64,000 nt of DNA from Butyricicoccus sp. Marseille-Q5471 (GTDB taxonomy: Bacteria; Bacillota; Clostridia; Oscillospirales; Butyricicoccaceae), in contig NZ_CATNVC010000004.1 in the NCBI RefSeq assembly GCF_951230135.1, forward strand, positions 1 through 64,000. Direction: 5' to 3'. This document shows, piece after piece, positions 2,496 to 47,877 of the stretch (the first letter of the stretch is position 1; the number at the start of each line of letters is the position of its first letter). The notes under the pieces were generated by a model that was not told the origin of the DNA, did not search any database, and worked only from the letters and a program-made list of their open reading frames with translations. Made by a program: the position numbers and the translations under genes.

Positions 2496-3887
2496 ATGTG
2501 TGGAATTGGCGGCTTTGTCGACTATGACCGCGACGCACGCGACTTTGGCTCAGTCGCCGCGCGTATGCTGCGTACCCTAACCCCGCGCGGGCCCGATGCG
2601 GGTGGCCAGTGGGGCGATTTGGACGCGACGCTTGTACATCGCAGACTGATCGTAATCGATCCGGAGGGCGGGCAGCAGCCCATGGTATCACCGGACGGAA
2701 ATACCATCCTTGTATATAACGGAGAGTTATATAATACGGAAGATATACGAAAAGACTTACTCTCATGCGGGCACACCTTTCGCGGGCACTCCGATACCGA
2801 GGTCGTGCTGCATGCATTTCTCGAATGGGGCACCGACGCGTTCCCCCGTTTTAATGGGATTTATGCCTTTGCGCTGTGGCAGGCAAACGAGCGCCGACTG
2901 ACGCTCTGCCGTGACCGGTTGGGCGTAAAGCCGCTGTTCATTGCCCACTCCAAGGGCGGCATTGTGTTCGGTTCGACGCTGGCCACGCTGCTGTGCCATC
3001 CTGAGATTGAGCCGGTCATTGATCAGGACGGCCTGCGCACGCTGCTGCTGCTCGGCCCGGCGCGCCCGCCCGAATCCGGTGTATTCCGGCAGATTCAGTC
3101 CATCCTGCCCGGACACTACGCCATTTTGACCCCTGAAAACTATATCGACCGTGCCTATTGGTCGCTGCAGGCGCACGAGCACGAGGATGATCTTGAAACA
3201 ACCATTGAACGCACGCACGATTTAATTTGTGATGCGACCCAGCGGCAGTTGGTGTCCGATGTGCCGCTTGCGACCTTCCTGTCGGGTGGTCTGGACTCCT
3301 CAATCCTGTCCATGCTGGCCGCCAAGGAGTACGCCGCGCGTGGCGAAACCCTGCACACCTGGTCGGTTGATTATCGGGATAACGACAAGTATTTTACAAA
3401 GAGTAATTTTCAGCCAAATAGTGACAGCGAGTATATCGGCATGATGGTTGATTTTCTGCATAGCGAGCATCACGACATCATCATCGAACCGGCTGCGCTC
3501 TGTGCCGCTCTGCTGCCCGCGACCGACGCGCGCGACCTGCCCGGCATGGCCGACGTAGACTCTTCCCTGCTGCTGTTCTGCGGCCAGATTAAGAAGGAGT
3601 TCACGGTATGCTTGTCCGGCGAGTGCGCCGATGAACTGTTCGGCGGTTATCCCTGGTATCATCGGGAGGAGATTCTGTTTGAGGATACCTTCCCCTGGTC
3701 CCGCTCGATTGACTTCCGCAAATCGCTGCTTGCACCGGGCACTGTGATGGACGGCGAGGAATTTGTGCGACAGCACTATCTGGACACCTGCCGCGCGGCC
3801 GACAAACTGTCTACCGACAGCAAGAAGGATGCCCGCATGCGCGAAATGTTCCTGCTCAATTTGGATTGGTTTATGGCGACCCTGCTT
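2496..3887 (+). pseudogene. asnB: Asparagine synthetase (glutamine-hydrolysing), 5' part, split by the inserted element
   Basis: Codons 1-464 of AsnB. The start is ATG 2496, not an earlier in-frame GTG at 2469, because Cys2 must become the N-terminal catalytic residue (MCGIGGFVDY) and AAAGGAGG lies just before it. The glutaminase domain shows RGPDAGG, HRRL, YNGELYN and GHSDTEVVL. The synthetase domain shows the ATP-pyrophosphatase loop SGGLDSS at residues 263-269 and LSGECADELFGGYPW. Homology stops exactly after WFMATLL; the expected continuation DRKDRMSMYSGLEVRVPF is found at 47443 on the same strand. The open frame runs on antisense to the protease gene until 5486, but a terminator at 3997-4044 should end the transcript. 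As it stands the product lacks its C-terminal quarter. Confidence 0.93.
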
Positions 3888-3913
3888 GAAGGAAGGGTTG
3901 CGAGAGGATACTT
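3866..3913. other. attL: left attachment site (asnB / element junction)
   Basis: The crossover is placed at GA 3888-3889. To the left is asnB coding sequence (ATGGCGACCCTGCTT). To the right, 3890-3913 is one arm of an inverted repeat whose partner is at the other junction (47419-47442). The shared arm pattern is AAGTATYCTYTYGCAACCCT, with 18 of 24 positions matching about the GA centre. A 7-nt identity ACCCTGC (3879-3885 and 47434-47440) also flanks the core. A two-base core at the dyad centre is the known geometry for large serine recombinases. The exact core is inferred, not proved. Confidence 0.8.
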
Positions 3914-3996
3914 GAGAAAACGCAGCTTTCCATATACCGCCGATGCGTACATCCTCACGCCCCCCCTGCATCAGTGCTGTTTCCGTCACGACTTAG

Positions 3997-4044
3997 AAAA
4001 ACAGACCCCCTCGATTGCTGAATGCCTTCGAAGGAGTCTGTTTT
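3997..4044 (-). terminator. Terminator after the subtilisin-SLH gene, usable on both strands
   Basis: Imperfect long stem: AAAACAGAC with CTCGA on one side pairs with TCGAAGG and GTCTGTTTT on the other. On the minus strand the stem ends in GTCTGTTTTTCT just after the protease stop at 4047. On the plus strand it ends in GTCTGTTTTC and would stop read-through from the broken asnB. Confidence 0.7.
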
Positions 4045-4046
4045 CT

Positions 4047-7000
4047 TTATTTCATGCAGATGAGACGCTGCAAAATTGCTGCAACTTCGGCTCTGGTGGC
4101 ATTGCCGCCCGGATCGAGCCGATTGCCGTCCTTGCCTGCAAGCAATCCCTGATTTGCCGCCCAGCGCAGTGCAGTCAAAGCCCAATCCGACGCGTCTGCC
4201 GCATCTGCAAATTCGAGTTTCTGCGTCGAAACGGCAGGTTTCCCCGAGAAATTGTACAGAATCACGGCAATCTGTTCCCGCGTAACGCTGTTGCCGGGAT
4301 AGAACATGCCGTCCCCCATGCCGCTGACCAGTCCCGAGCCGCCTGCCCACTGAACCGCATCACTGTACCAGCTGTCTTGGGATATATCGGCAAATGTAAC
4401 CGGCGCTGCAGTCTCAAGCGAAGCCGGATTGCCCGATGCCAGACGATGGAGCGTCGTCACCAGCATCGCGCGCGTCATTGTGCCGTCCGGCGAAAAAGAG
4501 GTGCTCGAGGTTCCCGTGAACAGACCCCGCGCGGTCACAAACGCGACTGCACCGTCAAACCAGTCACCGTCCGCAACATCATTAAAGGACAGGCCGCCGT
4601 TGACGATTTGATACGTTGCCGCATGATTTGCCGTAAAGGTCACCGAACCCTTTTCCACCACGCCCCACGGCAGGACGTGCAGCACGTATTGCTCATCCAC
4701 ATACGCCAGCACCTGTCCGTTCGCGCCTGTCGCGCGGCTGAGGTCGGGCACCAGACGATTGACATCAAAGCCCTCCGGCAGCGTCCCTGCGGGCACCGTG
4801 ATTTTCAGGCCTTCTCCGGTTACAAGCACAGCATTTTTGGCATTTTTTTCAACGAGCGCCGTGCTTTCCTCCGTGGTGATTTTGGCAGACTTCAGTGTCA
4901 GCGTGGTCGTGCCCTGACTATCCGTCATGGTATTGACCTCCGCAGCGGGCAGTACCGGCGTCGTAACACCGCCGCCGCCACCGCCTCCTCCTCCACCGGC
5001 AGCACCGCCGCCGGCAGCATTCCACTTGGCATAAACCGTGAGGTTTCCGGTCACTGCGGTTTGAGCCGTAAAGGCGCTGCCTGCGCCATTCTGCGCTGTA
5101 TACCAGCCGCCAAAGGTGTAGCCGCTTTGGGTGGGCGCGGCGGGCAATGCAACCGTACCGCCCTCGCGCACCTCGGAGGACGTGCTGTAGGTGCTGCCCT
5201 GACTGACAAAGGTCACTTTGTAGTGCGGCGCACTATCCTTGACGGTCAGCGTAACCGCAACCGGGTCGCCCGCGGCGAAGGCAACGGTCACTGTATGCAC
5301 GCCGTCGGTCAATGCGGTGTTCAGCAAAAGCTGCGCTGTGCCATCCGTAGACACCTCGGACAGCGTATAGCCCTCTGCTGTCAGCGCGGTTTGGTCGACG
5401 GTCACCCCTGTAATTGTGTTGCCGACCAGAGCGAGCGGAATGGCGGCCTGCTTTGCCGTATACCGATCAAACTCGACCGCACTTGACAGGGCGGCGGCCG
5501 TACCCGGCGGTGGCGCGCCGACATCCAGCGCAACACTCACCGCATCCAGCGTTGTCATGCTGCCGCTCTGCGCGGCAATCCTTAATGTCACGATGCGGTT
5601 TGCATCAGCCAGAGCAGGGGTGTAGGTCACGCGCGTACCACTCACCTGCACATTTCCCGTGCCGTTTCTTGTTTCCGCAACGCAGACAGTATCCGCGGGC
5701 AGCGCCGTGTTTTCACCGTCGCGGAACCACGATGCCGCGTCCACCGTATACGAAACCGCCGGGATCACGCTGTCGTATGACGGAGGTGTCGCCTGCCCGG
5801 TCTGCGTCCCCGCTCCCTGCGCTACATGAAGCGGCATGACAGCGAGGCGCAGCGTATACTGCTTGGACAGGCCGGCCGCACCCGCCGCACGCACGGTAAA
5901 GCTCCAGGTCGCGCCCGCATCCGCGGTGGTGATCTGATCCGCTATGCTGGTTGCAACCGTTGGCGTTACAATCACCTGATTGCTCGTCAGCGCAGACAGG
6001 TCGGTTCCGTACGGCTGATAGGCCAAATAGCTTCCATCCGCCTGCCGGATGGCCGTCTGCCCGTTTACAACAACCTCTGCCACATCGGTGGCATCATTTG
6101 ACTGCCATGCGGCAAACAGCGTCCGGTCACCGACCGAACCCGCCGGAATGGTCGTGACGCGCGCGCCGCTCAGATCACTTGTCTCATACCAACCGGCAAA
6201 TACATACCCGTCCCGCGTAGGCTCAGGCAGTGTGCAGGTGTCGTCCGTCACCTGATAGGTCTGCGCCGCCTGCTCGGGCAGCGTGCCGTCGTTCAGGCGA
6301 TAATCAATGGTATACGCACGCTGAAGCTCCTTGACAAATGCATCAACATTGACCACACCATAACCGTATTGGTTATCGTACCCTGCCGTTCCGCCGTCGA
6401 GCGACGTGTTTTCGAGCAGATACCGTATCCCCCGTTCGGTGATGTCATCATCATAGCCGCGTGCAATCGCCGCCATGCCGGTCACGACAGGTGCGGCAAA
6501 CGAGGTGCCTTTGTTGCTGCTCAGCGTCATATTCAGCATATACGCATCATCCGCGGTATTGCCCAGACTGACCACCCCTCCGCCCGGCGCGGTGACATAC
6601 ACCGAGCTGTTGCGCTGCGAAAAGGAGGAAACCGTCAAATCACGGTCGACCGAACCAACGCCGATGACATCGGTATATCCCGCCGGGTACTGCATGGTGG
6701 CGGCACCGCCGTTGCCCGCCGCCGCAACCATGATGACGCCCGCCGCCGCGGCACGGTCGATGGCTTCCGCAAGCGCGGTCGGGGACGAGCCCGAAATGCC
6801 AAGGCTGAGGTTCATCACGTCACAGCCGTCGTCCACGGCGGCGTTGATTGCCTGCACAACAGCGGAAAGCGTGGTCGTTTTTTGATTGAAAACACGGTAG
6901 GCCATGATTTCAGCATCCGGTGCAACGCCTGCCAGACCCTTTCCGTTATTGGTCTGCGCGGCGAGAATGCCTGCGGCAAATGTGCCGTGCCCATAGACAT

Positions 7001-7559: not shown

Positions 7560-7570
7560 AGCCGAAGCAA
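7542..7570 (-). promoter_or_regulatory. Promoter of the subtilisin-SLH gene, embedded in a hairpin
   Basis: Minus strand -35 TTGCTT (7565-7570), 17-nt spacer, -10 TATACT (7542-7547). The -35 lies inside the hairpin 7557-7585, so termination of the upstream giant gene and initiation of the protease gene share sequence. Confidence 0.6.
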
Positions 7571-7585
7571 TATGCTTCGGCTGTG
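7557..7585 (-). terminator. Perfect 11-bp hairpin after the 4189-aa protein gene
   Basis: CACAGCCGAAG, a 7-nt loop, then CTTCGGCTGTG. It lies about 70 nt past the stop of the giant gene. The following minus-strand tract CTTGTTTGG is only weakly T-rich, so termination may be partial. Confidence 0.55.
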
Positions 7586-7653
7586 CCCTTTGGCTGACTG
7601 TTGGGCGGACCGCTCAGGACAACGGTCCCTCAAGTCTTAGACAGCCCATGCAG

Positions 7654-23311: not shown

Positions 23312-23456
23312 CCGCGCAAATTCGCGAATAGTCTCCGCGAAAAGCAGGCTTTTGTGCACCGCATTGTGTCGGTGACAAAAAATTTGCGTTCTCGACAATA
23401 TAGGAATAACATGGTAATCTATTGGTGGTATTAATAAAAACGTAGAGGTGACCACT

Positions 23457-24185
23457 ATGCTGCGCATTGCCATCTGTGACGACACGCCGGACGAACTGCA
23501 GACCATCGCCGCGCTGACAAAAGCGTACCTTGCTGTGCATCATCCGAATGCTTCTGTTCGGACGTTCTCCCATCCGGATGCACTGCTCACTGCGTGCGAA
23601 ACTGAAACCTTTCACATTTATCTGCTGGACATGGTCATGCCAATGGTCAGCGGGTTGGAGTTGGGCCGCAGCATCCGCCGCCTGAGCACTGACGCGCAGA
23701 TTATCTTCATCACGACCGAGCGGAGCTTTGCACTGGACGCCTATTCGGTCAACCCCCTGCACTATCTGCTCAAGCCGGTGAACGCGGATGCCCTCTCCGC
23801 CGCACTGGCGCTGGCTGCCGAAAAGGTGGATTGCGGCAGGGAGACCACCGTCACCATCAAAACGCATGACGGCCTGCACACCCTGTCCGCAGACGCGATT
23901 GTCTGCTGTGAATATGTGCGTCATATCGTTGTCTACACGTTGATCGGCGGCAAACGGGTGGAAACTGTCACCCTGTCCGGCAGCTTTGCGGCGCACATCA
24001 CACCGCTGCTGCAGGATCGCCGGTTCATTCAGCCGCATGCCGCCTTTGCAGTCAACATGGGCTGCGTGGAACGGCTGTCCAAAGACGGCTTCACGCTGCA
24101 AACCGGCGTTTTTGTGCCGGTTTCGGGCAAGCAGTTTACCGCGGTGCGCAGCGCCTATATGCGTTACCGCTTGGGGGAGGAATAA
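23457..24185 (+). CDS. LytTR-family response regulator
   Basis: 242 aa from ATG 23457 (MLRIAICDDTPDE), chosen over an in-frame GTG 9 nt earlier because AGAGGTG is well placed for it. The receiver domain has the acidic pair Asp8/Asp9, the phospho-acceptor Asp58 (YLLDMVMP) and the lysine of HYLLKPV. The C-terminal half is a LytTR DNA-binding domain (the stretch from TVTIKTHDGLHTL to FAVNMGCVERL and VPVSGKQF). This is the AgrA/LytR type. The kinase gene starts 3 nt after its stop, so the pair is co-expressed. It is divergent from the MalT-like regulator. Likely targets are surface genes of the element, which is inference. Confidence 0.9.
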   Translation: MLRIAICDDTPDELQTIAALTKAYLAVHHPNASVRTFSHPDALLTACETETFHIYLLDMVMPMVSGLELGRSIRRLSTDAQIIFITTERSFALDAYSVNPLHYLLKPVNADALSAALALAAEKVDCGRETTVTIKTHDGLHTLSADAIVCCEYVRHIVVYTLIGGKRVETVTLSGSFAAHITPLLQDRRFIQPHAAFAVNMGCVERLSKDGFTLQTGVFVPVSGKQFTAVRSAYMRYRLGEE

Positions 24186-24187: not shown

Positions 24188-25444
24188 ATGGAGTTTTATG
24201 ATATTCTTCGCTCGCTTACCACAAACGTCATGATGTCCGCGCTGCTCTTTACCCTGGCGCAGCCAAAATACCGCAAATGGACGCTTTGGACGGCGCTGAG
24301 CGCAATCGCATTACTGGATTTGGCGATGAACGTGTTTTTCTATCTGCGGAACGACTACTCGGCACTGGCTGCTGCGGACATCCTCTTTTTCATCCTCGTA
24401 GGTGCCGCCGTCAAACCGCTGTTTCGGGAAACGCTGATGCAGTGGCTGTTCAACTGTTTCACCGCTATGAACATCTATGCCATTGCCGTGATTATCAGCT
24501 ACCACCTCTGTGATTTCTTTCCGCACCCGTATTATGCCATTACCATGCTGCGGGCGCTGCTGTTTGCCGCCGCCATCCTGCTGTTTCGGAAGCGTCTGCG
24601 TCCGCTTTACCGTCAGGCTGCGGAGCATTGGAGTGTCTATTTGTTTGTATCCGTCGGCCTGTTTATGAATTTCGCGTGGTACTTCGTTGGGGGCGACAAT
24701 GTGGAGCAAATGCTCACGGATCAGGTCGTTCCGCTTGTGCTGCTGATTGTGCTGGTGCTGCTCGTATACCTTTCCATCTTTCTCTCCCTGCACAAGACGC
24801 TGCGGGAAACCGCATTGCGGGAGGAAAACCTGAAAATGCAGTCCGAGCGGGAGCTGGTTCGCCAACGGCTGACATTGATGGATGAGGCAGTGCGGCAAAT
24901 GAGCGTGGTGCAGCACGATCGGCGTCACTTTAACCACACGCTCTCCTACCTGCTGCGGGAGGGTGAGACCGCGCAGGCCATTATCCTGCTTGACCGGCAG
25001 ACCGAATCGCTCCCGCAAAAACCCCAGACCTACTGCGAGAATGTGTCGGTGAACGCCGCCGTGTCCTATTATGCGGAGCAGGCCAAACGGCAGGGCATCC
25101 GCTGCGATATTCGCCTGAACATCTCACAGACACCGGGCGTAGACGAGTTGTCCCTTGCCATGGCGGTATCCAATCTCATGGAAAATGCCATTCATGCGGT
25201 CTCCGCCCTGCCGGAGGAGCAGCGGACGCTTCGCTTTACCGCCGTGGACACCGGCCAACTGCTGCTGGAGCTGACAAACCCCTATGCCGAAACGGTTACA
25301 CTGGACGAAAACGGTCTGCCAACCGCCCGAGCGGAGGGGCACGGCCGGGGCACGCAAAGCGTTGCGGCCTTCGTGAAACGCTGCGGCGGCGAGCTGGTCT
25401 ACCATGTTTCGGACGGCGTTTTTAAGGTGCAGCTACTGCTGTAA
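24188..25444 (+). CDS. GHKL-type membrane sensor histidine kinase (AgrC-like)
   Basis: 418 aa. About seven hydrophobic segments fill the first 200 residues, followed by a helical linker. The phospho-acceptor region is QHDRRHFNHTL (His243). The ATPase domain follows, with the N-box SNLMENAIHAV and the G-box EGHGRGTQS. This is the layout of the peptide-sensing AgrC/GHKL group that pairs with LytTR regulators. No agrB- or agrD-like gene is adjacent, so its ligand must come from elsewhere or be another signal. The gene ends about 90 nt before a strong hairpin (25534-25598) that precedes the 2419-aa surface protein unit. Confidence 0.9.
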   Translation: MEFYDILRSLTTNVMMSALLFTLAQPKYRKWTLWTALSAIALLDLAMNVFFYLRNDYSALAAADILFFILVGAAVKPLFRETLMQWLFNCFTAMNIYAIAVIISYHLCDFFPHPYYAITMLRALLFAAAILLFRKRLRPLYRQAAEHWSVYLFVSVGLFMNFAWYFVGGDNVEQMLTDQVVPLVLLIVLVLLVYLSIFLSLHKTLRETALREENLKMQSERELVRQRLTLMDEAVRQMSVVQHDRRHFNHTLSYLLREGETAQAIILLDRQTESLPQKPQTYCENVSVNAAVSYYAEQAKRQGIRCDIRLNISQTPGVDELSLAMAVSNLMENAIHAVSALPEEQRTLRFTAVDTGQLLLELTNPYAETVTLDENGLPTARAEGHGRGTQSVAAFVKRCGGELVYHVSDGVFKVQLLL

Positions 25445-33272: not shown

Positions 33273-33359
33273 ATGCCCGCAGCTGCCAAGCCCGTAAAAA
33301 TTTCAGACGACACCCCCACCCCAAGCGAACTCAAGGCGATTCTCGCGCAGATTGCATGA
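33273..33359 (+). CDS. 28-aa leader-like peptide before the recombinase
   Basis: ATG 33273 with GGGAG 8 nt upstream; it reads MPAAAKPVKISDDTPTPSEL and ends LKAILAQIA. An in-frame ATG at 33258 would add five residues. It sits between the -10 box and the recombinase start (64 nt away), so it would be on the same transcript. It is very short and unmatched to any family I know. It could be a leader peptide, a recombination accessory factor, or chance. Confidence 0.35.
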   Translation: MPAAAKPVKISDDTPTPSELKAILAQIA

Positions 33360-33423
33360 GTTTTGACCGCCCGCTGCCCGAAAATCCGTAATCATCCTCC
33401 AAAAGCCAAGAAAGGAGAGCCAT

Positions 33424-34989
33424 ATGATTGCGATTTATACGCGGCAGTCGGTCGAGCGAGCTGATAGCATCTCGGTCGAGCAGCAGGCCGATTTCTGCCG
33501 GGCGGCGTTAACTACCGCGGAGCTGAACCGCGTTCGGGTCTATACCGACAAAGGCTTCTCCGGCAAAAACACCGACCGTCCCGCCCTCCAGCAGTTGGTG
33601 GCCGATGCCAAAGCCGGGCGGGTTGAAAAAATCCTTGTCTACCGGCTCGACCGCATCAGCCGCAGCGTGCACGACTTTACCGGTCTGTCTCAGGAGCTGA
33701 CCGAACAGGGCGTGCATTTTCAGTCCGTGACCGAGGGCATTCTGCTCGATGACTCGCTCTCCGGCACGGTCATGGCGCAGATTATGATGGTCTTCGCGCA
33801 ATTTGAACGCGAAACCATCCAGCGGCGTGTCACCGACAACTACTTCGCCCGCGCCAAAACCGGCATGTACCTAGGCGGGCTGCCGCCGTATGGCTTTGAA
33901 AAGGGCAAAACCATGGTGGACGGCAGACACACGGCATGCTATGTGCCCCACCCCGCGCAGTCCGTCATCGTCCGCCGGATGTTCGAGCGGTATGTGCAGG
34001 ACGGTGAAACGCTGGGCACTTTGACGCGCTGGCTCAACGCTGCCGGATATCGCACCGCACGTGGCGGGTCGTGGAGCACGCTCCCGCTCGGACGGCTGCT
34101 GCGAAATCCCGCGTTTGTGCGTGCCGATGCGAAGGTTTACCGCTATTTACAGTCCAAGGGGGCAACGCTAAACGACCCCATCGAACGCTTTGACCAGTGT
34201 CACGGGTGTTACTGCTACGCACCGCTTTCATCCCGCAAAACACGGCCGACACAGAGCAAGTTTTCGGACATGTCCCACAGCTTCATTACGTGCGCGCCGC
34301 ATGAGGGGCTTATCGATGCCGCGCTCTGGCTGCAAACACAGTACAAGCTCGACCGGAACAAGGCCTTGAAAAGCAGCGGCTCCGGCACGCACAGCTGGCT
34401 GTCCGGTCTGATGAAGTGCCAAAAATGTGGCTACGCCATTACGGTGGTCAACAAACCCAACGGCATGTCCGGCCACTACATCAACTGCGGCGGACACAAG
34501 CGCGGCAATGCCGTCTGTCCGGGACGAACGCAGGTGATGACGCTCGAGCAGATTGAATCGTCCGCCGAGCTGCGCCTGCTGGAGTACCTCGATGGCTATC
34601 GGAGCGTGCCGATGCAGGTGCAGCAGACGCAAAGCGCAGAGGGCAACCGCATTGAAATAGAGCTTGTGCGCTGCGAGGAGGACATCAAACGGCTCACGCA
34701 AAACCTCGCGCACATCACCGAGGTCGATGTCGTACATATCATTTCGGCGCAAATCCACGAGAGGAACCAAGCCCTGACCGCGCTGCAGGCCGAGCGGGAC
34801 GCCTTGCTGTATGAGCGCGCGCCCTATGACTTAGAACCCTATTTTGAAGCGATTTTAACCGAGTGGCACGACTATACCATCCCTGAAAAGAAGAAAATCG
34901 CCTGCGCCGTCATTGAACAGGTAATTGTGGGCGACGGAGATATTGAGGTAGTCTTTCGCGCCGTGCGCGGTGACATCTGCCCCGTCTAA
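33424..34989 (+). CDS. Large serine recombinase (site-specific integrase)
   Basis: 521 aa with ATG 33424 after AAAGGAGAG. The N-terminal resolvase domain begins MIAIYTRQSVER with the catalytic Ser9. It carries the conserved arginines and YRLDRISRS, GTVMAQIMMVFAQFERE and RRVTDNYFARAKTG. A recombinase domain follows (PPYGFEKG, FERYVQDGETLGTLTRWLN). The zinc ribbon is CQKCGYAITVV...HYINCGG...NAVCPG. A C-terminal coiled coil (RIEIELVRCEEDIKRL...LTALQAERDALLYE) follows, where integrase synapsis is controlled. It is the best candidate for inserting and excising the element at asnB. No separate recombination directionality factor was recognised. Confidence 0.93.
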   Translation: MIAIYTRQSVERADSISVEQQADFCRAALTTAELNRVRVYTDKGFSGKNTDRPALQQLVADAKAGRVEKILVYRLDRISRSVHDFTGLSQELTEQGVHFQSVTEGILLDDSLSGTVMAQIMMVFAQFERETIQRRVTDNYFARAKTGMYLGGLPPYGFEKGKTMVDGRHTACYVPHPAQSVIVRRMFERYVQDGETLGTLTRWLNAAGYRTARGGSWSTLPLGRLLRNPAFVRADAKVYRYLQSKGATLNDPIERFDQCHGCYCYAPLSSRKTRPTQSKFSDMSHSFITCAPHEGLIDAALWLQTQYKLDRNKALKSSGSGTHSWLSGLMKCQKCGYAITVVNKPNGMSGHYINCGGHKRGNAVCPGRTQVMTLEQIESSAELRLLEYLDGYRSVPMQVQQTQSAEGNRIEIELVRCEEDIKRLTQNLAHITEVDVVHIISAQIHERNQALTALQAERDALLYERAPYDLEPYFEAILTEWHDYTIPEKKKIACAVIEQVIVGDGDIEVVFRAVRGDICPV

Positions 34990-35000
34990 CGTATGCCAAA

Positions 35001-35034
35001 ACAAAGGGAGAACCCGGTTGGGTTCTCCCTTTGT
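35001..35034. terminator. Bidirectional terminator between the convergent recombinase and UbiB-like genes
   Basis: A 15-bp perfect stem, ACAAAGGGAGAACCC with GGGTTCTCCCTTTGT, around a 4-nt loop. It serves the plus-strand recombinase and the minus-strand kinase, whose stop lies at its edge. Confidence 0.75.
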
Positions 35035-36614
35035 CAGCGTTTCCGATAAATATCATACAGCAGCCGCAGACCAAGCACGACGGCAAGCAAATAACCGACC
35101 GCGCCGAGCGCCGGAATGCCAAACAGCTTGCCCTTCATATCGGTCGTGCAAATCAGGCTGGAACCGACCAACAGGCCGGTTGTAATGATTGCCAGAATCA
35201 GCTTATCCACCATGCGGTCAATGCGCCGCAGCGGCTGTTCCGAGCCGGTCAGCTCGAGATTGACCTTGGTCTGCCCCTTGACCGTCATCTTGAGCACGTC
35301 CGCCAGATAAGACGGAATATCCACCGCCTTTTTGAGCACATGCGCCGCGTGCACGCCTGCGTCCCGCAATTCCTTGCCCCAGTCTGCCCTGCGAAAGGCC
35401 TCACCCGCGAGATGCCCCGAAAAGATGCGAATAAAATTAATCGACGGACTCGTCCTGCTGAGCACGCCTTCGATGGTCAGCACGCCGCGCGCGAGCATGC
35501 TCAGTCCGGGCGACAGTCCGATATGATAGCGATTGAGCACATCGGTCAAATCCCGCAGCACCTCGCCCAGATCGAGGGCGGCAAACTCAGCCGAGCCGTA
35601 TTTCGAAACAAACAAATCAATATCACTGTACAACGCAGCATGGTCGATTTCCCCGCGGCGGATGCCGAGCGACAGCGACACATCCTTTAAGGCGCACACA
35701 TCGCCTGCAACAAACGCACTGACCAACTGTCCGAACAGCTGCCGGTCGCGGCCGGACAGCTCGCCCATCATGCCCAAATCAAGCCAGACAATCTGCCCGC
35801 CGCGCACCACCAGATTGCCCGGATGCGGGTCCGCGTGGAAAAATCCGCTTTCCAACACCTGCTGCGCGTAGCTTTCCGCGAGCTTTTCGCCGATTTCCGC
35901 TAAATCATACCCCTGCTGCGTGAGCATGCTCAGATCGTCAACCGGAATGCCGTCCACATATTCCATCACGAGCACATGCCGCGTGGTCAACGCACGGTGC
36001 ACCTGCGGGCAGGCGGTATACACAATGCCCTTGTTTTCCCGAGTGAAGCGCTCAATATGGTCAGCCTCGACAATGAAATCCATCTCCTGCTGTGCGGCGA
36101 CCCACATTTCGTCGATGATGGTGCGCAAATCGTCCGGCGCGCCCTCGCCCGTCACGACCTTGAGCATCGAAATGGCGCGGCGAATGAGCGTAATATCGCG
36201 CGACATGGTTTCATAAATCCCGCTGCGCTGCACCTTGACCGCAACGATTTCGCCGTTGCATAGCATCGCCTTATGCACCTGCGCTATTGAGGCCGATCCC
36301 AGTGCCACAGGATCGATTTCGGCAAAGATTTCATCGTACATTTCGCCGTATTCTTCTCGCAGCAGGCGGGTTACCTCATCAAACGGCATGGGCGTGACCT
36401 CGGTGCGCAGGTTTTTCAATTCGTCACAGTATTTGCGCGGGATAAGGTCAGCACGCATCGAGAGGATTTGACCCAGCTTGATGAAGGTAGGCCCCAGTTC
36501 CTCCAAAACGGTGCGCAGCTTGCGCGGATCGAGTCCGTGTACCACATCGCTGCGGCGCAGCACGCCGAATATCTCCGACAGGCGCGAGGGATGGGCGGTT
36601 TTAGCGTCTTTCAT
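35034..36614 (-). CDS. AarF/ABC1/UbiB-family atypical kinase, membrane-anchored
   Basis: 526 aa. Family hallmarks are visible: the KxGQ motif (FIKLGQILSMR), the alanine-rich loop (LGSASIAQVHKA), the lysine of VAVKVQRSG, the catalytic HADPHPGNL and the metal motif in WLDLGMMGEL. Two C-terminal hydrophobic segments (AIITTGLLVGSSLI and LGAVGYLLAVVLGL) anchor it in the membrane. UbiB/COQ8 proteins act as ATPases in lipid or quinone metabolism. This anaerobe probably lacks ubiquinone, so its role is unknown. It follows the phasin-like gene with a hairpin between them. A housekeeping-looking gene inside a mobile element is unusual. Confidence 0.9.
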   Translation of the reverse strand: MKDAKTAHPSRLSEIFGVLRRSDVVHGLDPRKLRTVLEELGPTFIKLGQILSMRADLIPRKYCDELKNLRTEVTPMPFDEVTRLLREEYGEMYDEIFAEIDPVALGSASIAQVHKAMLCNGEIVAVKVQRSGIYETMSRDITLIRRAISMLKVVTGEGAPDDLRTIIDEMWVAAQQEMDFIVEADHIERFTRENKGIVYTACPQVHRALTTRHVLVMEYVDGIPVDDLSMLTQQGYDLAEIGEKLAESYAQQVLESGFFHADPHPGNLVVRGGQIVWLDLGMMGELSGRDRQLFGQLVSAFVAGDVCALKDVSLSLGIRRGEIDHAALYSDIDLFVSKYGSAEFAALDLGEVLRDLTDVLNRYHIGLSPGLSMLARGVLTIEGVLSRTSPSINFIRIFSGHLAGEAFRRADWGKELRDAGVHAAHVLKKAVDIPSYLADVLKMTVKGQTKVNLELTGSEQPLRRIDRMVDKLILAIITTGLLVGSSLICTTDMKGKLFGIPALGAVGYLLAVVLGLRLLYDIYRKR

Positions 36615-36627
36615 GATGCTCTCCTAA

Positions 36628-36663
36628 TAAAAGCCGCGGCCCTCCCGTGAGGGATGGCCGCGG
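36628..36663 (-). terminator. GC-rich hairpin between the phasin-like and UbiB-like genes
   Basis: CCGCGGCC (36634-36641) pairs with GGCCGCGG (36656-36663), with a further CCTCCC/GGG pairing inside. On the minus strand it is followed by TTTTATT and then the AGGAGAG ribosome-binding site of the UbiB-like gene. It is probably a partial terminator that lowers UbiB expression. Confidence 0.6.
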
Positions 36664-36677
36664 TCAGGTGCGGTATC

Positions 36678-36983
36678 TTACACTTCTTCGCTCCGGTCGA
36701 GCGCGGCGAGCTTTGCGCGCAGCACGGCAAGCTCCTCCTGCGACATGGAATCCATACGCTTTGCGATTGACTCCGCGCTGTCGTCCAGATCGAACACGTT
36801 CTTCACCGTCTTCTTGGCGTTGTGCTTCAGTTCTTCGTTGAGCACCTTGCCCTGCTCGACGGTCAGCTGACCCTTTTCAACCAACTTATCAATCATTTCA
36901 CCCGATTTTTCAGCAGTCACCGCGACCGCGCCCACGCCGGCCAAAAAGATCTTCTTTAAATCATCGCTAAATTTTTCAATCAT
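36678..36983 (-). CDS. Phasin-like small helical protein
   Basis: 101 aa from ATG 36983 (MIEKFSDDLKKIFLAGVGAV), chosen because GAGGTG is 7 nt before it; a GTG nine bases earlier is possible. The pattern of an N-terminal LKKIFLAGVGAVAVTAEKSGE and then a charged coiled coil (DKLVEKGQLTVEQGKVLNEE) matches the phasin/PhaI-like superfamily in Firmicutes. These are often next to AarF/UbiB-type genes. Its own promoter is at 37050-37078. The function in clostridia is not established; membrane or granule surface association is an inference. Confidence 0.75.
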   Translation of the reverse strand: MIEKFSDDLKKIFLAGVGAVAVTAEKSGEMIDKLVEKGQLTVEQGKVLNEELKHNAKKTVKNVFDLDDSAESIAKRMDSMSQEELAVLRAKLAALDRSEEV

Positions 36984-37049
36984 ATCGGTCACCTCGTTTT
37001 CTTACTCGGAATCACCTTACTACACCTTTAACTTACCACTTTTCACCTG

Positions 37050-37078
37050 ATTTTACAACTGCTTTTTAAAATTAACAA
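37050..37078 (-). promoter_or_regulatory. Promoter of the phasin-like/UbiB-like pair
   Basis: Minus strand TTGTTA (37073-37078), 17-nt spacer, TAAAAT (37050-37055). Confidence 0.55.
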
Positions 37079-37079
37079 A

Positions 37080-37112
37080 GAACCCGCGTCCCCTTTTTCG
37101 GAACGCGGGCTC
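37080..37112 (-). terminator. Terminator after the 3087-aa surface protein
   Basis: GAGCCCGCGT pairs with ACGCGGGTTC on the minus strand, followed by TTTGTTAATTTT. It ends 27 nt after the stop at 37139. The plus-strand side also ends in TCTTTT. Confidence 0.7.
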
Positions 37113-37138
37113 TTTTAGTTTATGCGTTTTGCAGTGTC

Positions 37139-43100: not shown

Positions 43101-46100
43101 CTCGTGCCGTTCTGGCGAAGTGCATACGTACCGTCCGTGCCCTGCTCATAGTAGTTGACGGTGATGGTCTTGTTCTCTGCATAAACCGCTTCATACGTCA
43201 CGCTTGTTTTCAGAGAATTAATTGTGATGGTCTTGGCCGGCGCATTGTTTGAACCCTGCAGCTTCCAACCAAGGAATGTATATCCATCTCGCTGAGCAAC
43301 GGGGGACTGTTCAAACTTGCTGCCATAGGCCTGCGTGTAGACCCAGATCTTTCCGCTGACTTCGGCAGGAGCAGCCGTGCCCGTCATCGTGCCGTCCTTC
43401 GGATCGAAGGTTACGGTGCGGTTTTGCAGCGTCCACTGTGCGGTCAGGGTAACATTCTTTGCCGGCATAGTGAAGGTTGCGGAAACAGCCGCGTTGTCCT
43501 GATCCTTCCAGCCCGCAAAATTGTAGTTTTCCTTGCTCGGGTCGGGAGTCACAACTGTGACCGTTTCGCCTGCGAAATAAGACTTCTGCGTTGTATCGCC
43601 TGTGGTGGAACCTCCGTCGAGGTTATAGATGACAGCATACTTAGGCGCATACACCACAGTCAGCACCAACGGTGCGGTGACAGTATTAAAGGTAAAGCTG
43701 CCATCCTCAACGTCATTCTTCTTGTCGACGTTGCCGGTCAGCATCGCACTCTTGAGCACGTTCGGAGCGGTCGCAGCAAGCGTGAACGCATTGCTGTCCG
43801 CACCGGCGTTGACCCACGCAGAGTCGGTTGCCTTTTGGTTTACCGTGCCGCCGGTCACGTTAACGGTGACCTGATACTGCTTGGTATAATGTGCGGTATA
43901 GGTCTTATCCGCGGTGACGGTGGCCGGGAAGCTCGTGACCTTGGTCTGCCCGTCGTACCAACCTTCAAACACATACCGCACACCATTTTCCGTGCTGGTT
44001 TTGCTTGCAGTCGGTGCAGTCGGGAATGCACTGCCGTCGACCTGATTGAACGTTTTATTGCCGTCAGCATCCGCGCCCGCGATCACGCCCTCGCCCGGCT
44101 TAAAGGTAACCGCATAAACCGGATCGTAGTACAGCGTAATCTCGTTGCCCGAAGCTGCAACCGTAATGTCCTTTGATGCCGAGTTGTAGCGATATTCGCG
44201 GCCACCGTAAACAATCGTTGTCAGCTTCTCTGTATCTTTCAGTTGGCTCACACCAAAGCTTGAGCCAATGGTAACGCCAGACACCTGAATCGCATCATGA
44301 ATTACCGTCGTCTTATCCTTATTGCTGAGATAATTTACCGTAACCGTGGTGGTCTTGGCAGTTTTGCTCCAAACGCCGTAAACCGTCTTGTCGACGTTAC
44401 CCATGGTGACGGATGCTGTCACGTTAGCGGATGTGCCCTCTCCGAAAGTGGTCTGCGTTTCCGACCAACCAAGGAAAGTATAGCGATACGCAGAATCCTC
44501 CGGAACGGTCAGTGTCGGATTCGGCATTGTCAAGGTATGGCTTTCGCCCTCTGAAACCTGTACCGAAGACGGAACCGTACCGGCGACCGTCTTACCGCCG
44601 GCATTAGCGTTATAGTTCAGCGTATGCTTGGGTGTTACCGGACGAGTTAAATCGCCACAAGTAAGAGTCGTCTCTTGCGGCGCACCGGAAGCATCCTTAT
44701 AAGAAAGGTTTGCAGAGGTGTTTGTGTTGCCGGTGTAGGACTGGAGCATCTTCTCGGCCTTCAGCTTGACATTGATTGTCAGCTGAGCCGTTGCGCCCTC
44801 CGCCAGTTCCCCAACTGCCCACGCAATATTGCCGCCGGAAACGGTGACCGTACCTTGAGTTGCATCATAGGTCGTACCGGAAGCCGCCTCACCGTTATCC
44901 AGTACCAGTTCCCAATCTGCCGTGTTGATTACGTCAGAAACGGAAACGTTGGCACTAATCTGGCCGCCGATTGCGTTAAAGATGTTGTTTAAGTCACTTG
45001 CCAGTTTAACATTCTGGAAATGTGCCTCATCAGTTGCAACCTTCTTAACATAATCTGTACCGGACGACATGCTAAGTCCAATTGCATAAACAGTAGCAAG
45101 TCCCTTCACCGAGGCAGCTACTGTATCATAGTTATCGTAGTTCGGCTCACCGTCGGTTAAGAACACAACATATTTGTCATGACCATTATTCTTAATTGAA
45201 GAAGTCTCTAATAAACTCTTTGCGTTTGTCAGTCCTTCACTATAATCCGTACCACCACCAGCAGTAAAATTGCTGTTAATTGTATTAACTAGCGTCGTGT
45301 ATTGGTTGCCGGAATACCAGCCATAGGATGTTGCGCTGCCGGCAAAATCAACAGCCGCAATATTGTTATCCGCATCATCCAGCGTAACAAGCAGCGTTGC
45401 CGCCGCGGCTTTCGCGCTATCCATGCGATTGGTGCATCCATAGCTCGCAGACGCGTTATTCGTATAAGTTTTACCACCGTTACTCGTTACAAAGTGGTGA
45501 TCTTTTTCATAAAAATGGCCCTCATCCCAGTGCGCAGGATTGGTGCACGGACCATAGCCATAGTATGGATATGCCCTGCTCCACGCCATTGAACCTGACG
45601 TGTCCATCACCAAAACAACATCAACCGGGGCCTTCTCAAGCTTCGTGCCGCCGGTTACATCGAACGTGATGGTTGCTGTACCGTCCTCCTTATTATTCCA
45701 GTCTGCACTCTTGGTTGCAGTTGGGGCGTTGTACTCCGTCGCAGTGTAGACGAACTTGGCCGCGGTTACTGTGCCGATCCAACCGCTTGTACCGTTGAGG
45801 GAATACTGGATGGCTGTCCCAACCGACTTTACCTTGGCGGTTGTAACTGCATCGCCTGTGATTTCTACTGACGAACCACCACCCGTAAGCACAATTTTGG
45901 ACAACGTATAGGGCATCTTATTCGCTGTGGTGAATCTGCCCTTTAAGCCGTTAAGTAGTGTGCCGTCAGTCGGGATAGATGTGTTCGCCGCCGCCAGCAA
46001 CACCGTGCCATCGCCAGCCTCATGACTGACCGACAGGTCACGAGAGGCTGCCGTGTAGTGGTAGGTTACTTGGTTGTCCCCTAACCACTCCCCTTCATCA

Positions 46101-46402
46101 TCATCGTCATACGTATAATACACAACATCCTCCGAGCTAACACCTAACTCATCGATTTGTGTATCGCCTACGCTTGCATAAGAATAGGCATATCCATCGA
46201 TCTTTGGTGCGTAATTCGATGCCGCCTGCTTCCTATTTTTAATACTAGTGCTAGTGGATGAGCCAGGAATCACTGTGTTTCCATACATACACTGAATGGA
46301 TACCACTTTCTCCGTGCTAGGCGCCGCAAGCGCCTCCATCGGCATCATGCTTGCGGTCATAATAATCGTCAGCACGAGTGCCAGAAACCGTTTCAGTTTC
46401 AT
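37139..46402 (-). CDS. Giant SLH-anchored surface protein (3087 aa) with von Willebrand A domain and InlB/MucBP-type repeats
   Basis: The ATG at 46402 follows AAAGGAGGG. A signal peptide is clear (MKLKRFLALVLTIIM, cleavage near EALA). A vWA domain spans about residues 259-480 with the metal site DTSGS at 267-271 and the FLTDGEPNYDNY segment. Then come many InlB/Flg_new-type repeats (GYTFLGWKL, NYNFAGWKDQ), MucBP-like repeats (SYTVQYYLND), and DUF11-like modules (KSLTKVQNLTEGNW, NTGDKALDGFKLTDAM). The C terminus has three SLH repeats (GYPDGNVRPNANIDRQE, GYKDGTFRPNAPITRAE, GYPDGTFRPDAYITRAE) and a short tail. It should be an exported adhesin that binds metal through the vWA domain. A near-tandem 1.28-kb duplication lies within it. 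It is probably co-transcribed with the small acidic secreted protein upstream. Confidence 0.87.
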   Translation of the reverse strand: MKLKRFLALVLTIIMTASMMPMEALAAPSTEKVVSIQCMYGNTVIPGSSTSTSIKNRKQAASNYAPKIDGYAYSYASVGDTQIDELGVSSEDVVYYTYDDDDEGEWLGDNQVTYHYTAASRDLSVSHEAGDGTVLLAAANTSIPTDGTLLNGLKGRFTTANKMPYTLSKIVLTGGGSSVEITGDAVTTAKVKSVGTAIQYSLNGTSGWIGTVTAAKFVYTATEYNAPTATKSADWNNKEDGTATITFDVTGGTKLEKAPVDVVLVMDTSGSMAWSRAYPYYGYGPCTNPAHWDEGHFYEKDHHFVTSNGGKTYTNNASASYGCTNRMDSAKAAAATLLVTLDDADNNIAAVDFAGSATSYGWYSGNQYTTLVNTINSNFTAGGGTDYSEGLTNAKSLLETSSIKNNGHDKYVVFLTDGEPNYDNYDTVAASVKGLATVYAIGLSMSSGTDYVKKVATDEAHFQNVKLASDLNNIFNAIGGQISANVSVSDVINTADWELVLDNGEAASGTTYDATQGTVTVSGGNIAWAVGELAEGATAQLTINVKLKAEKMLQSYTGNTNTSANLSYKDASGAPQETTLTCGDLTRPVTPKHTLNYNANAGGKTVAGTVPSSVQVSEGESHTLTMPNPTLTVPEDSAYRYTFLGWSETQTTFGEGTSANVTASVTMGNVDKTVYGVWSKTAKTTTVTVNYLSNKDKTTVIHDAIQVSGVTIGSSFGVSQLKDTEKLTTIVYGGREYRYNSASKDITVAASGNEITLYYDPVYAVTFKPGEGVIAGADADGNKTFNQVDGSAFPTAPTASKTSTENGVRYVFEGWYDGQTKVTSFPATVTADKTYTAHYTKQYQVTVNVTGGTVNQKATDSAWVNAGADSNAFTLAATAPNVLKSAMLTGNVDKKNDVEDGSFTFNTVTAPLVLTVVYAPKYAVIYNLDGGSTTGDTTQKSYFAGETVTVVTPDPSKENYNFAGWKDQDNAAVSATFTMPAKNVTLTAQWTLQNRTVTFDPKDGTMTGTAAPAEVSGKIWVYTQAYGSKFEQSPVAQRDGYTFLGWKLQGSNNAPAKTITINSLKTSVTYEAVYAENKTITVNYYEQGTDGTYALRQNGTSTIDSYVGKALTIGAAGDVKTAISDATVLNAAEVYAAAAASTTKPTTGKIGEGSYTVGTAPITTSVINVYFPRKQAKVTIIDEYRNSNGDKVDGLGGQRGTAVTYYVGQPITEIAKLASIESGYTFSGVTAKPTGFAIKDDKVTGTMGTADVTVTYVYTPDGGQTKSYTVKYFINGTEDKALEYKSSVQLLETLSATAVTDKKPTVDSAVETAWAVDKITRDTAGNNLVSGDSHTFTTAQTNLADGTVFNVYYVSKHSVAASIAAPNASNGTATVAQSTVNHNGATTATITPSYGYKVKSYTVNGVTGNVQPGTDGTLTVELKNITTNTAVIATLEKNADHWYKVVYHANDKTTGEQTAATVDILKTKAHTVNDGIAFTAENGFAADVTFAQSNYSFNGWALDADGKMPAPATVQPDAGASVLNLYAKWTATVNYTVEGGTFDANQTGYTATATGLSKIYTNPKTDGSVTLPTGKPDSTHTGDGKWDKDAAAVKNGDSYKLTFAARHTLIIKDQYGAETATERSKDENVTAGAPVTATPLTELRKGYKYGSVTIEPTTGTGLADNNGTVSGNLLTNATITYHYVADEAQTKSYTVQYYLNDSKQETLGYESSKVQWLQPLTATSVLDKKSGLTMADSTGFAFDKIMLGEDELTATLSDGNYTFAAQTLNDGDVIKVYYVSQHSVTASIKDNEQNKLGTTAVTNATVNYNGSSSVTVTPAPGYKVTGYTVNGTQGTEQPAADGKLTVSLSNIQKNTAVIATVVKDDAQWYKVVYHANDVATGEQTATTVDILKTAAHTVNTTTAFLAANGFAADVTFAQSNYKFNGWASDVEGKNTVSATVKPTGNESVIDLYAKWTATVNYTVDGGTFDANQAGYTATETGLSKTYTNPKADGNVTLPTGKPDSTHTGNGTWDKAAAAVKDGDSYKLTFAARNPVAVIFDATAKGTITGTTGTTVSYAGYEGWTVQQILANHSVTAAPGVTNVDANAWYFTGDWMNGTTAFAMDTVVNSSITYVAQYAPVVTFDPNGGTSGTHTALWRENTDKGAFNQPAAPTKDGFAFAGWYVVENGSVGNQFTFTDGKATTDKPLTLKALYHKITVEKSLTKVQNLTEGNWTDKTELKASAGDKLVYTIKVTNAGDLALTDLKLTDALTTGSTALTGVTVYDGATAVTDSTRFDLAVAGEKTFTAEYVVKATDAGKALVNTATVSDGKIEGKDETDPFTPDYTPNFTVDKTATIERSGSHTTLRAGDTVHYTVTVVNTGDKALDGFKLTDAMVIGGINHNLSQMSNLKIKIGNADAAAATVGADNALVFDLPVGTTAIVTYDYTVAVADAGKKISNTAVGVAEGKEKQDNTETDVVEAKVPVQLYFQTETVNGSETAYEADNGVTIVEKYVGDTLTKAEIEGYIAAKKPALAAGINESGSTFHLPSADKWADATVIPATYTVQASNNKMLVRYPLHRFTVTYKPGDHGTLDLGEGAKGTKENGSIVFTNIPYGAKLSEWFGETLNGKLLVQKNPSEGYVFNGFDKELADTVTANQELTAQWRSDKFKYSVEIYTMNQNGTNQKLVDTRSDLYLKVNETEPQFTATLPLDAAVLLTEEQTAGKITQGYKFLRYVQGEAVADEPQAMSVITDSKHDFTLTKDNEVIRVYYVPFDLAVWHQRSGYDAQFDAAQSIATLTESATASMNTGFFGISRIRYLSTDVSMNGGENVNGQQQVVEVPVNEGSYKITFNYNRRSSGGGDPTIPENEIPLDPGLNKDDHFAYVIGYPDGNVRPNANIDRQEVATIFFRLLTDESRIKAWSSVNTFKDVTSALWSNNAVSTMSSAGILNGYKDGTFRPNAPITRAEFAAIAARFDSSLYVGDNMFSDISGHWAADYINRAAQKGWISGYPDGTFRPDAYITRAEAMTLVNNVLDRRVKAEGMLKDMTVWPDNPTTAWHYAAVQEATNSHDYDRATPTEYEKWTEITPARDWSQLETQWATAAAAYDA
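40308..42865 (-). repeat. Two-copy tandem repeat of about 1278 bp inside the 3087-aa gene
   Basis: Matching landmarks recur with a period of 1275-1278 bp. The codons for FAARH/FAARN lie at 41586 and 40308, YKVVYHAND near 42069 and 40791, and KSYTVKY/KSYTVQY near 42593 and 41318. Both copies keep blocks such as GFAADVTFAQSNY, FNGWA, TLPTGKPDSTHTG and ATVNYTV. The MucBP-like parts have drifted more, so the duplication is not very recent. Confidence 0.8.
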
Positions 46403-46426
46403 ATTTTTTACCCTCCTTTGAATGGT

Positions 46427-46464
46427 GCTAGAACCGAGCAGTCCTAAAGCTGCCCGGTTCTAGC
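46427..46464 (-). other. Long hairpin just upstream of the 3087-aa gene's ribosome-binding site
   Basis: A 15-position stem with one mismatch: GCTAGAACCG plus GCAG pairs with CTGC plus CGGTTCTAGC, around an 8-nt loop. On the minus strand it is followed by ACCATTCAAAGGAGGG with no T-run, so it is not a canonical terminator. It may stabilise or mark a processing site between the small secreted protein and the giant gene. Confidence 0.6.
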
Positions 46465-46489
46465 GAATATATTACTGTTTATTTCTATC

Positions 46490-47119
46490 TCAAACGATAA
46501 CCCAGCCGTCCGCCAGCTCATAATTCAGCACAATCTCGTTCATGCCTTCCGCAACGGTAACCGCAGTTGCATCACCGGTAAACGTGATGCCGCCGATGTC
46601 CGTCCAGACATACTTGCTCAGGTCAAGCGTATCCCCTACGTTCAACTCAACCTCCTGCGTTTCCTCGTAAGCCATCTCGCCGGCCGTGTTGTATACCACG
46701 CCGCGGATTGTAATGGTCTGCGCTACGGGAGCGAGCGGAATCTGCTCATCAATGATTTCAACAACCGGTGCCTCTTCTGCCGGCAGCTCTTCCTCAGGAG
46801 CTTCGACTGCCGGAGGCTCGGCTACCGGGGTATCAACCACCGGAGCATCCTCGTCAGGCGTCTCTACCGGGGCTTCCACAACCGGAGCCTCCACCTCAGG
46901 AAGCTCTTCTACAGGAGCCTCAACCGCAGGAATCTCCTCTTCGGGAACAATGACTCCGTTTTCGTCCACCAACATCTCATCCAGCAAAGCATCTTCCTGT
47001 GCGATAATTGTGGGTGTGATAGGCAGAAGTCCCTCTTGCGCGGCTGTATTTGCCGCAAATGCCGTGGTTGTCATGGTGCACATCATTGCAGTCGCCAAAA
47101 TGATAACAGCCTTTTTCAT
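46490..47119 (-). CDS. Small secreted acidic protein with EAPV-type repeats
   Basis: 209 aa. The signal peptide MKKAVIILATAMMCTMTTTAFAA is clear. Residues ~50-135 are a Pro/Glu/Val-rich region built from repeated EAPVxE units. The C-terminal ~75 residues form a small beta-rich domain (TITIRGVVYNTAGE, VELNVGDTLDLSKYVW, GMNEIVLNYEL). There is no SLH domain or sortase motif, so it is probably released or bound to a partner. The gene is 87 nt upstream of the 3087-aa protein and in the same direction, which suggests an accessory subunit or processing partner. No family was recognised. Confidence 0.75.
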   Translation of the reverse strand: MKKAVIILATAMMCTMTTTAFAANTAAQEGLLPITPTIIAQEDALLDEMLVDENGVIVPEEEIPAVEAPVEELPEVEAPVVEAPVETPDEDAPVVDTPVAEPPAVEAPEEELPAEEAPVVEIIDEQIPLAPVAQTITIRGVVYNTAGEMAYEETQEVELNVGDTLDLSKYVWTDIGGITFTGDATAVTVAEGMNEIVLNYELADGWVIV

Positions 47120-47442
47120 AAGAACCTTCTCCTTTGCAAATCATCTGTAAATGGATCGCACCGGCGATTGCCGCTGCGGTTAAATTCTCTCTTATCGATG
47201 ATTTGAGTATACAGGAGTACGGTTACATCTTGGTCACATATCAGGGAATTATGGAAATTTACGTTTCTTCATATAAATCCAATTCAGGTTTCCCTTGTTT
47301 AGTATACTTTCTTCGGGGATGAAAGGCCGTAATGCACCAATATCCATTTTATTTCAAATGAAAATTTTTTATTCGCGTGTTTTGTCCCGTCAGGCTGCTG
47401 TCAATCGCCCGTCCTGCGAAGTATTCTTTTGCAACCCTGCGC
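47120..47442. other. Right end of the element: noncoding upstream region
   Basis: There is no convincing gene in these 323 bases. On the minus strand two TATACT boxes are seen (47206-47211 and around 47302-47307) without a good -35 at normal spacing. Either could drive the small secreted protein. The last 24 bases (47419-47442) are the left arm of the attP-type inverted repeat. An in-frame ATG at 47377 could start a short chimeric frame that enters the asnB 3' part. Confidence 0.5.
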
Positions 47443-47470
47443 GACCGCAAGGACCGCATGAGCATGTACT
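47419..47470. other. attR: right attachment site (element / asnB junction)
   Basis: The core GA at 47443-47444 is the first two bases of the GAC codon of DRKDRM. On the left, 47419-47442 is the second arm of the inverted repeat (AAGTATTCTTTTGCAACCCT and four more bases); on the right asnB resumes. Joined to 3890-3913, the arms are symmetric about the GA. The asnB side shows only weak dyad symmetry, as expected of an attB. Confidence 0.8.
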
Positions 47471-47877
47471 CCGGACTCGAGGTACGTGTGCCCTTCTGCG
47501 ACCACCGCATCGTCGAATACGCCTACAACATGCCTTGGGACATGAAGGCACTGCAGGGACGCGAAAAAGGCATCGTCCGCCGCGCGTTTGAACGCGAACT
47601 GCCCGAGGAAATTGTTTACCGCAAGAAGAGTCCCTATCCGAAGACCTTCCATCCTGAGTACACCGAACTGTGTGCTTCCTATGTACGGCAGATTTTTGCC
47701 GACGATCGCTCAATTGCCGCAACGCTGTTTAACCACGACGCGGTCGGCGCACTCATGCAGGAGCCGGAAAGTCTGGCAGAGCCGTGGTACGGACAGCTGA
47801 TGCGCACACCGCAGATATTCGCTTACATCATTCAAATGGACCGCTGGTTCAAGCAATATAAGGTTCGTTTGGCCTAA
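47443..47877 (+). pseudogene. asnB: Asparagine synthetase, 3' part
   Basis: Codons 465-607 of asnB plus the stop: DRKDRMSMYSGLEVRVPFCD (start of the fragment), AYNMPWDMKALQGREKGIVR, RKKSPYPKTFHPEY and the usual C-terminal tryptophan/lysine end. The frame matches the 5' part exactly when the element is removed. Without the N-terminal glutaminase and the ATP loop it cannot act alone. An ATG at 47377 inside the element gives a 166-aa frame through this fragment, which might be translated but would not be a synthetase. Confidence 0.93.

Follow-up and report, generated by a model that had tools for sequence, protein, structure and literature searches.

A serine-recombinase element that splits asnB in Agathobaculum is a candidate skin-type gene-intervening element

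Introduction

The closest described relatives of the locus analyzed here are elements that split a gene and leave it by precise excision. In the parts of the reports covered here, skin splits sigK in frame in Bacillus subtilis and C. difficile, carries its own serine recombinase, and is excised precisely (PMC4191935, PMC10747680). The gin element in gerE of B. cereus ATCC10987 is described as a 28.6-kb island without phage genes that has three recombinases and the helper GirX, and the gene is rebuilt in sporulation (PMC5595907). SPbeta in spsM, vfbin in spoVFB, vrin in spoVR, and yin in yabG are prophages or prophage-like elements that are also removed precisely from mother-cell or sporulation genes (PMC4191935, PMC10747680). 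As for asparagine synthetases, the excerpts covered place asnO of B. subtilis under the control of σE, SpoIIID, and σK (PMC517825) and report that its inactivation gives an asporogenous culture (PMC12575378; a table row in PMC4703394). The titles and abstract openings of open-licence PMC literature contained no report that we could find of an asparagine synthetase gene interrupted by an element; in word searches of the available text, asnO and asparagine were not mentioned in PMC5595907, and asn was not mentioned in PMC10747680 or PMC4191935.

Here, we analyze a stretch of 64,000 nucleotides (the window) in which the asparagine synthetase gene asnB is split by a 43.6-kb element. The window belongs to a genome of 2.9 Mb (G000) in the genus Agathobaculum, the habitat of which is the gut. 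We compared it with the other genomes of a 25-genome genus set and with 295 genomes drawn from the order. With moderate confidence, we propose that the element is a skin-type gene-intervening element that is excised in the sporulating mother cell.

Results and Discussion

Joining the two parts of asnB (Table 1), which lie in the same frame, at their GA dinucleotides gives a protein of 608 amino acids with the motif LLDRKDRM, and the only stop codon is the final one. The breakpoints are at 3887/3888 and 47442/47443, and the element proper (3888-47442) comprises 43,555 bp. These data bear out an initial annotation of the same DNA, which had claimed that a 43.6-kb element splits asnB, that its excision would restore the gene, and that a joint at GA gives 608 codons with this motif and without an internal stop. 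Its range of codons 1-464 for the 5' part stands, whereas that for the 3' part (465-607) had to be corrected to 465-608, i.e., 144 codons plus the stop, so that the whole gene has 608 sense codons and a stop. The asnB copy of G010 matches TIGR01536. We found no second asnB in the window genome, where the sole other match to the 5' half, at 29% identity, is confined to a part of the glutaminase domain, nor did we find AsnA in any of the 25 genus genomes.

Table 1. Features of the split asnB locus and the intervening element (window coordinates)
Feature	Position	Strand	Basis
σE-like promoter position of asnB, GCATAGT-N14-CATAGGAA, degenerate -10	2432..2460	+	aligned with invariant CATA...GCATA columns
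asnB 5' part, codons 1-464, GATase and most of Asn_synthase domain	2496..3887	+	PF13537, PF13522, PF00733
Left end, GA core and arm AGGAAGGGTTGCGAGAGGATAC	3888..3911	+	end alignment, arm test
Subtilase with List_Bact repeats and SLH domains, 1170 aa	4047..7559	-	Pfam
Calx-beta/SLH surface protein, 4189 aa	7654..20223	-	Pfam
NTPase with LuxR-type HTH, 832 aa	20644..23142	-	Pfam
Response regulator	23448..24185	+	Pfam
GHKL sensor kinase	24188..25444	+	Pfam
MBG/YDG/Big repeat surface protein with SLH, 2563 aa	25404..33095	+	Pfam
Small ORF before recombinase, 28 codons, candidate directionality factor	33273..33359	+	position; function inferred
Large serine recombinase, 521 aa, intact	33424..34989	+	PF00239, PF07508, PF13408; phrog_95 integrase
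ABC1-type kinase-like protein	35034..36614	-	Pfam
Phasin-like protein	36678..36992	-	Pfam
VWA/DUF11/SLH surface protein, 3087 aa	37139..46402	-	domain matches
209-aa protein, extensin-like match	46490..47119	-	Pfam
Right end, arm and GA core, inverted copy of left arm (15/18)	47421..47444	-	end alignment, arm test
asnB 3' part, codons 465-608 and stop	47443..47877	+	PF00733 and join

asnB is split at this GA dinucleotide in 16 of the 25 genus genomes and intact in nine (G003, G005, G007, G009, G020, G022, G026, G029, and G030); A. massiliense Marseille-P4005 and A. sp. Marseille-P7918 are isolates with a split gene. Within the reach of each stretch, eight intact stretches and the split ones share the same genes next to asnB. 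In the 16 split genomes, we examined 14 left ends and 15 right ends, and every one of them has the GA core (only the left end was seen in G006 and only the right end in G011 and G021; the two ends lie on different contigs in G024 and G028, the latter with two copies of the right end). Because the window lies inside a contig of 246,944 bases and the same GA junction recurs in independent assemblies across 16 genus genomes, we conclude that the split is neither a chance event nor an assembly slip, an alternative that the initial annotation had raised; one split genome is that of an isolate with a 3.2-Mb contig.

The two ends of the element form a palindromic att site, with arms that are inverted repeats, mostly near GGTATCCTTnTGCAACGC / GCGTTGCAnAAGGATACC. 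For the 18-nt left arm, the next-best match in the 64-kb window is the right arm, inverted, while none of the 25 longest of the 507 inverted-repeat pairs within the element joins both ends. Changes in one arm are often matched in the partner arm (G010, G012, and G024). Across 13 species, 206 of 234 positions match between the arm pairs within species, compared with a mean of 186.5 after permutation, and 0 of 20,000 draws reached 206; this test does not correct for the kinship of the species, and the arms were first spotted by eye. That the arms stay paired within species suggests that the recombinase still uses them. As in skin-type elements, a short direct core lies at the ends together with inverted-repeat arms, and the precise excision of a single element would restore the coding frame.

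Also as in skin-type elements, the element carries its own site-specific recombinase, which is intact and belongs to one lineage within the genus. Fourteen of the 16 split genomes carry a member of this lineage together with an asnB end, with 54-71% identity to the window's copy among genus members (the copy of G010, which is frameshifted, was read in two frames); a close recombinase was not found in G006 or G021, both of which are split. A search of named genomes returned 15 loci, most of them in Agathobaculum, including A. massiliense Marseille-P4005 and A. sp. Marseille-P7918, and many of them shared with the 25-genome set; in the DNA examined around them, an asnB half is present at 14 of these loci and absent at L146. 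Outside the genus, the best match among the 295 genomes of the order (E<=1e-90) has 40% identity and is found in G072, in which asnB itself is split, on a different contig from the recombinase match. With the recombinase, the att sites, and intact asnB genes in sister genomes all present, the excisable serine-recombinase element proposed in the initial annotation, which took it to be either a simple parasite or a switch, is well founded.

A small ORF of 28-50 codons precedes the recombinase at 13 of 13 loci; it encodes 36-50 amino acids in the 12 relatives and is short, with 28 codons, in the window genome. The combination of a serine recombinase and a putative helper recalls gin and its GirX (PMC5595907, as far as covered). 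In G008, G024, G023, and G001, the recombinase is encoded on the asnB strand and starts less than 300 nt after the 5' half, and by its position, asnB transcription could read through into the recombinase; skin, in the parts of the reports covered, likewise has its recombinase gene after the 5' half. At the position of the recombinase start codon, G011, G012, G023, and G024 (L097, L090, L098, and L103) have ATA, ACG, ATC, or CTG. The window genome is rich in serine recombinases, with 21 matches to the element recombinase at E<=1e-3. Against the XisF model, the element recombinase scores E 7e-32, far under the model cut-off. The fdxN element of cyanobacteria is excised by the serine recombinase XisF; it interrupts another target gene, and its setting is the heterocyst and not the spore. 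To our knowledge, asnO is not split in B. subtilis 168.

In a tree of asnB, the intact genes of G022 and G005 nest among those of split species, and the minimum number of changes is four, with weak deep branches. Based on Nei-Gojobori estimates, for which medians were taken from pairs with dS of 0.05-1.2 that are not independent of each other, the median dN/dS between split genes is 0.117 for the 5' half (60 pairs) and 0.092 for the 3' half (78 pairs), compared with 0.149 (32 pairs) and 0.141 (23 pairs), respectively, between intact genes. Both halves are under purifying selection while split, with a constraint equal to that between intact genes. G002, G004, and G025 make the strongest case. 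Among these three genomes, dS is 0.39-0.64 for asnB, 0.50-0.59 for the recombinase, and 0.37-0.54 for xdhA, and this agreement indicates that asnB has probably been split since their common ancestor. The dN/dS of the 3' half is 0.014-0.029 in this trio (0.025 for G004-G025), with six amino-acid-changing versus 40 silent differences between G002 and G004 and three versus 41 between G002 and G025. The window genome and G010 give dN/dS of 0.097 and 0.037 at dS of 1.3-1.5, i.e., near saturation. For most other pairs, dS is higher for the recombinase than for asnB (e.g., 1.30 versus 0.49), which, together with the lower dS of the permease in the trio (0.11-0.35), suggests that parts of the element have been exchanged.

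A trace of excision is found in G005, which has an intact asnB and is the sister of the split G004 (support 100/100). On another contig, G005 carries a cargo block with the order MobA-xdh-MATE-permease-orf263-orf219, in which the element's right-end sequence adjoins its left-end sequence; the core and one arm are missing, and the 18-kb stretch around the block contains no recombinase match. This order fits an opened circle of the element, and the move was probably out of asnB. The similar intact species G022 has the cargo block without orf219. The selection on both halves together with this remnant of joined ends favors real excision over a dead knock-out. Altogether, based on the split, the att arms, the recombinase, the selection, and the joined ends in G005, precise excision of the element from asnB is well supported as a reading of these genomes.

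Besides regulators, the window's element carries four SLH proteins, large or giant, as cargo (Table 1); over ~960 aa, the 3087-aa protein is 48% identical to proteins from the elements of G010 and G021. In many relatives, the cargo comprises genes for xanthine dehydrogenase, a MobA-like protein, a MATE protein, and a xanthine permease, to which A. massiliense adds EutA/EutB (ethanolamine). xdhA is present in 21 of the 25 genus genomes, and its location outside asnB in the window genome and in other species points to a complex history of the cargo. We rejected a prophage: among the nine element ORFs compared with PHROGs (those other than the three giant ones), only the integrase has a full-length match to a phage mobility or structural function, and a tail match and a protease match correspond to the SLH and subtilase portions of the 1170-aa protein. 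An integrative conjugative element was rejected as well, as the Pfam matches of 12 element ORFs include no relaxase or transfer genes. Among the element ORFs examined, we recognized no gene that would replicate a free circle.

The most serious alternative is that asnB is a hot spot for genomic islands, i.e., that this recombinase family targets the gene, that excision is rare and unprogrammed, and that the loss of asnB is tolerated via asparagine import. The accessory and variable cargo, the empty sites in nine of the 25 genomes, the state of the recombinase in G010, G006, and G021, and the module exchange suggested by the recombinase dS would all fit such a hot spot. However, the strong purifying selection on both halves while element and gene appear to be co-inherited, and the co-variation of the att arms, argue against it, and we consider it unlikely.

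Upstream of asnB, two CATA boxes ~20 nt apart are invariant in all 16 regions compared and, besides the ribosome site and the start, are the only invariant four-column runs. The summed score for σE-like promoters over these 16 regions is 178 compared with 152.1 ± 2.9 for shuffled sequences, with relatedness not corrected. The best σE-like site lies at the CATA boxes in 11 regions and elsewhere in five, and six regions individually score at p<0.05 against shuffles. In the window genome, the match at this position is weak and is neither the best-scoring site nor at p<0.05. Among the regions upstream of the recombinase, 2 of 13 have a σE-like score with p<0.05. A search with a strict σE pattern was too strict, giving one hit in four genomes and one in the reversed control. 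As a yardstick, the region upstream of spoIVA was unusable because spoIVA lies closely behind another gene; the regions upstream of sigK, which were used instead, have a double-CATA layout similar to that of asnB.

With regard to sporulation genes, SpoIVA is present in 20 of the 25 genus genomes, including the window genome, and the SigE of the window genome, queried as a partial protein, scores above one of the two NCBIfam SigE cut-offs. Among the matches listed, sigK is near full length in 14 of the 25 genomes, ends ~10 residues early in four, is cut in three, and was not found in four, including the window genome. Based on the σE-like promoter of asnB, the role of AsnO in sporulation, and the presence of sporulation genes, excision is likely timed to the mother cell, although the sigK not found among the matches listed, the weak promoter, and the short small ORF weaken the case for this timing in the window genome itself. 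The matches that end ~10 residues early are L192 (G027), L194 (G031), L196 (G024), and G001:C30, and in G027 a serine-recombinase match lies 0.6 kb after the short sigK. The cut genes end at ~codon 60 in G005 (L189 and L190), G022 (L191), and G011 (L193), and a serine-recombinase match (26% identity) lies ~0.9 kb past the cut in G005 and G022; the cut is predicted to be a second, skin-like interruption in the genus.

Alternatively, excision in a part of the growing population, e.g., under asparagine or nitrogen limitation, could turn asnB on reversibly. With no other asnB and no asnA found, the restored gene would give asparagine synthesis, and the selection on asnB fits such a vegetative switch as well. 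Yet, no nutrient-linked control was noticed, the CATA boxes are the sole invariant upstream runs besides the ribosome site and the start, and no gene for replication of the circle was recognized among the ORFs examined; we regard the switch as improbable, and a terminal event in the mother cell is the better reading. Finally, it is very hard to credit that the halves are made as separate proteins that reassemble without excision: open frames are kept in both halves, but the 5' half reads into element sequence to a length that varies by species, and the 3' half begins at the att arm and has no conserved start codon.

We therefore return to excision of a skin-type element in the mother cell, for which we suggest the following model. 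Probably with the help of the small ORF, the large serine recombinase would recombine the two ends at the GA core, releasing a 43.6-kb circle and rebuilding asnB. The best-supported setting for this event is the mother cell, in which asnB would act like asnO of B. subtilis and be needed for spores; the excised DNA would die with the mother cell, while the spore would keep the island. Where the small ORF and the recombinase directly follow the asnB 5' half, the promoter of asnB itself would switch on excision. Between excisions, accessory genes may use the locus as a cargo bay. From these comparisons we infer that the element is excised in this strain, when this happens, and what the small ORF does. 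By analogy with AsnO, which the excerpts covered describe as an asparagine synthetase under mother-cell control, we propose the same control for asnB here.

Relative to the known elements, as far as the reports were covered, the asnB element differs in several respects. Its target encodes a metabolic enzyme and not a sigma factor as in skin, it has no recognized phage remnants, and its excision is predicted from sequence. Unlike SPbeta, vfbin, vrin, and yin, it is not prophage-like and sits in a different target (PMC4191935, PMC10747680); whereas gin has three recombinases (PMC5595907), it has a single one and carries exchangeable cargo of metabolic or surface-protein genes. If our model is correct, the few genes known to be reassembled by programmed DNA loss during sporulation would be joined by one for a metabolic enzyme, and elements of this kind could house ordinary catabolic genes (xanthine, ethanolamine).

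Outside the genus, 68 of the genomes drawn from the order have an asnB match of at least 40% identity (hand count), and asnB is split in five of them: at the same site in G300, G072, and G298, and at ~codon 380 in G092 and G140. For G072 and G298, the search recovered the 5' part but not the 3' part; the asnB of G016 is cut by a contig end, and the other 62 matches run past both sites. Four of the five genomes have a serine-recombinase match next to the split; the stretch of G072 examined has none. The insert in G092 (L223, G092:C82), at ~codon 380, is minimal, with 2,392 bp that encode a 530-aa serine recombinase and a 96-aa ORF. σE-like promoters are mixed outside the genus, with p<0.05 in G094, G300, G140, and G148 and not in 7 of 11 regions. 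That the same gene is split repeatedly in several families suggests a rule for safe sites of large islands. We tentatively raise the broader possibility, which we hold with less than even confidence, that asnB is a recurrent developmental docking bay in the order for catabolic and surface-protein islands, that mother cells discard the islands to rebuild asnB and so differ in genome from the spore, and that the simplest forms are self-timed, with the recombinase driven by the asnB promoter.

Two further arrangements were observed. In G300 (L218, G300:C38), the asnB halves lie on opposite strands ~7 kb apart with the recombinase beside the 5' half, which is either an inversion or an assembly fault. 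Intestinibacillus massiliensis (L150) has a related recombinase, matched over 389 residues, with an asnB 3' half ~8 kb away on the other strand.
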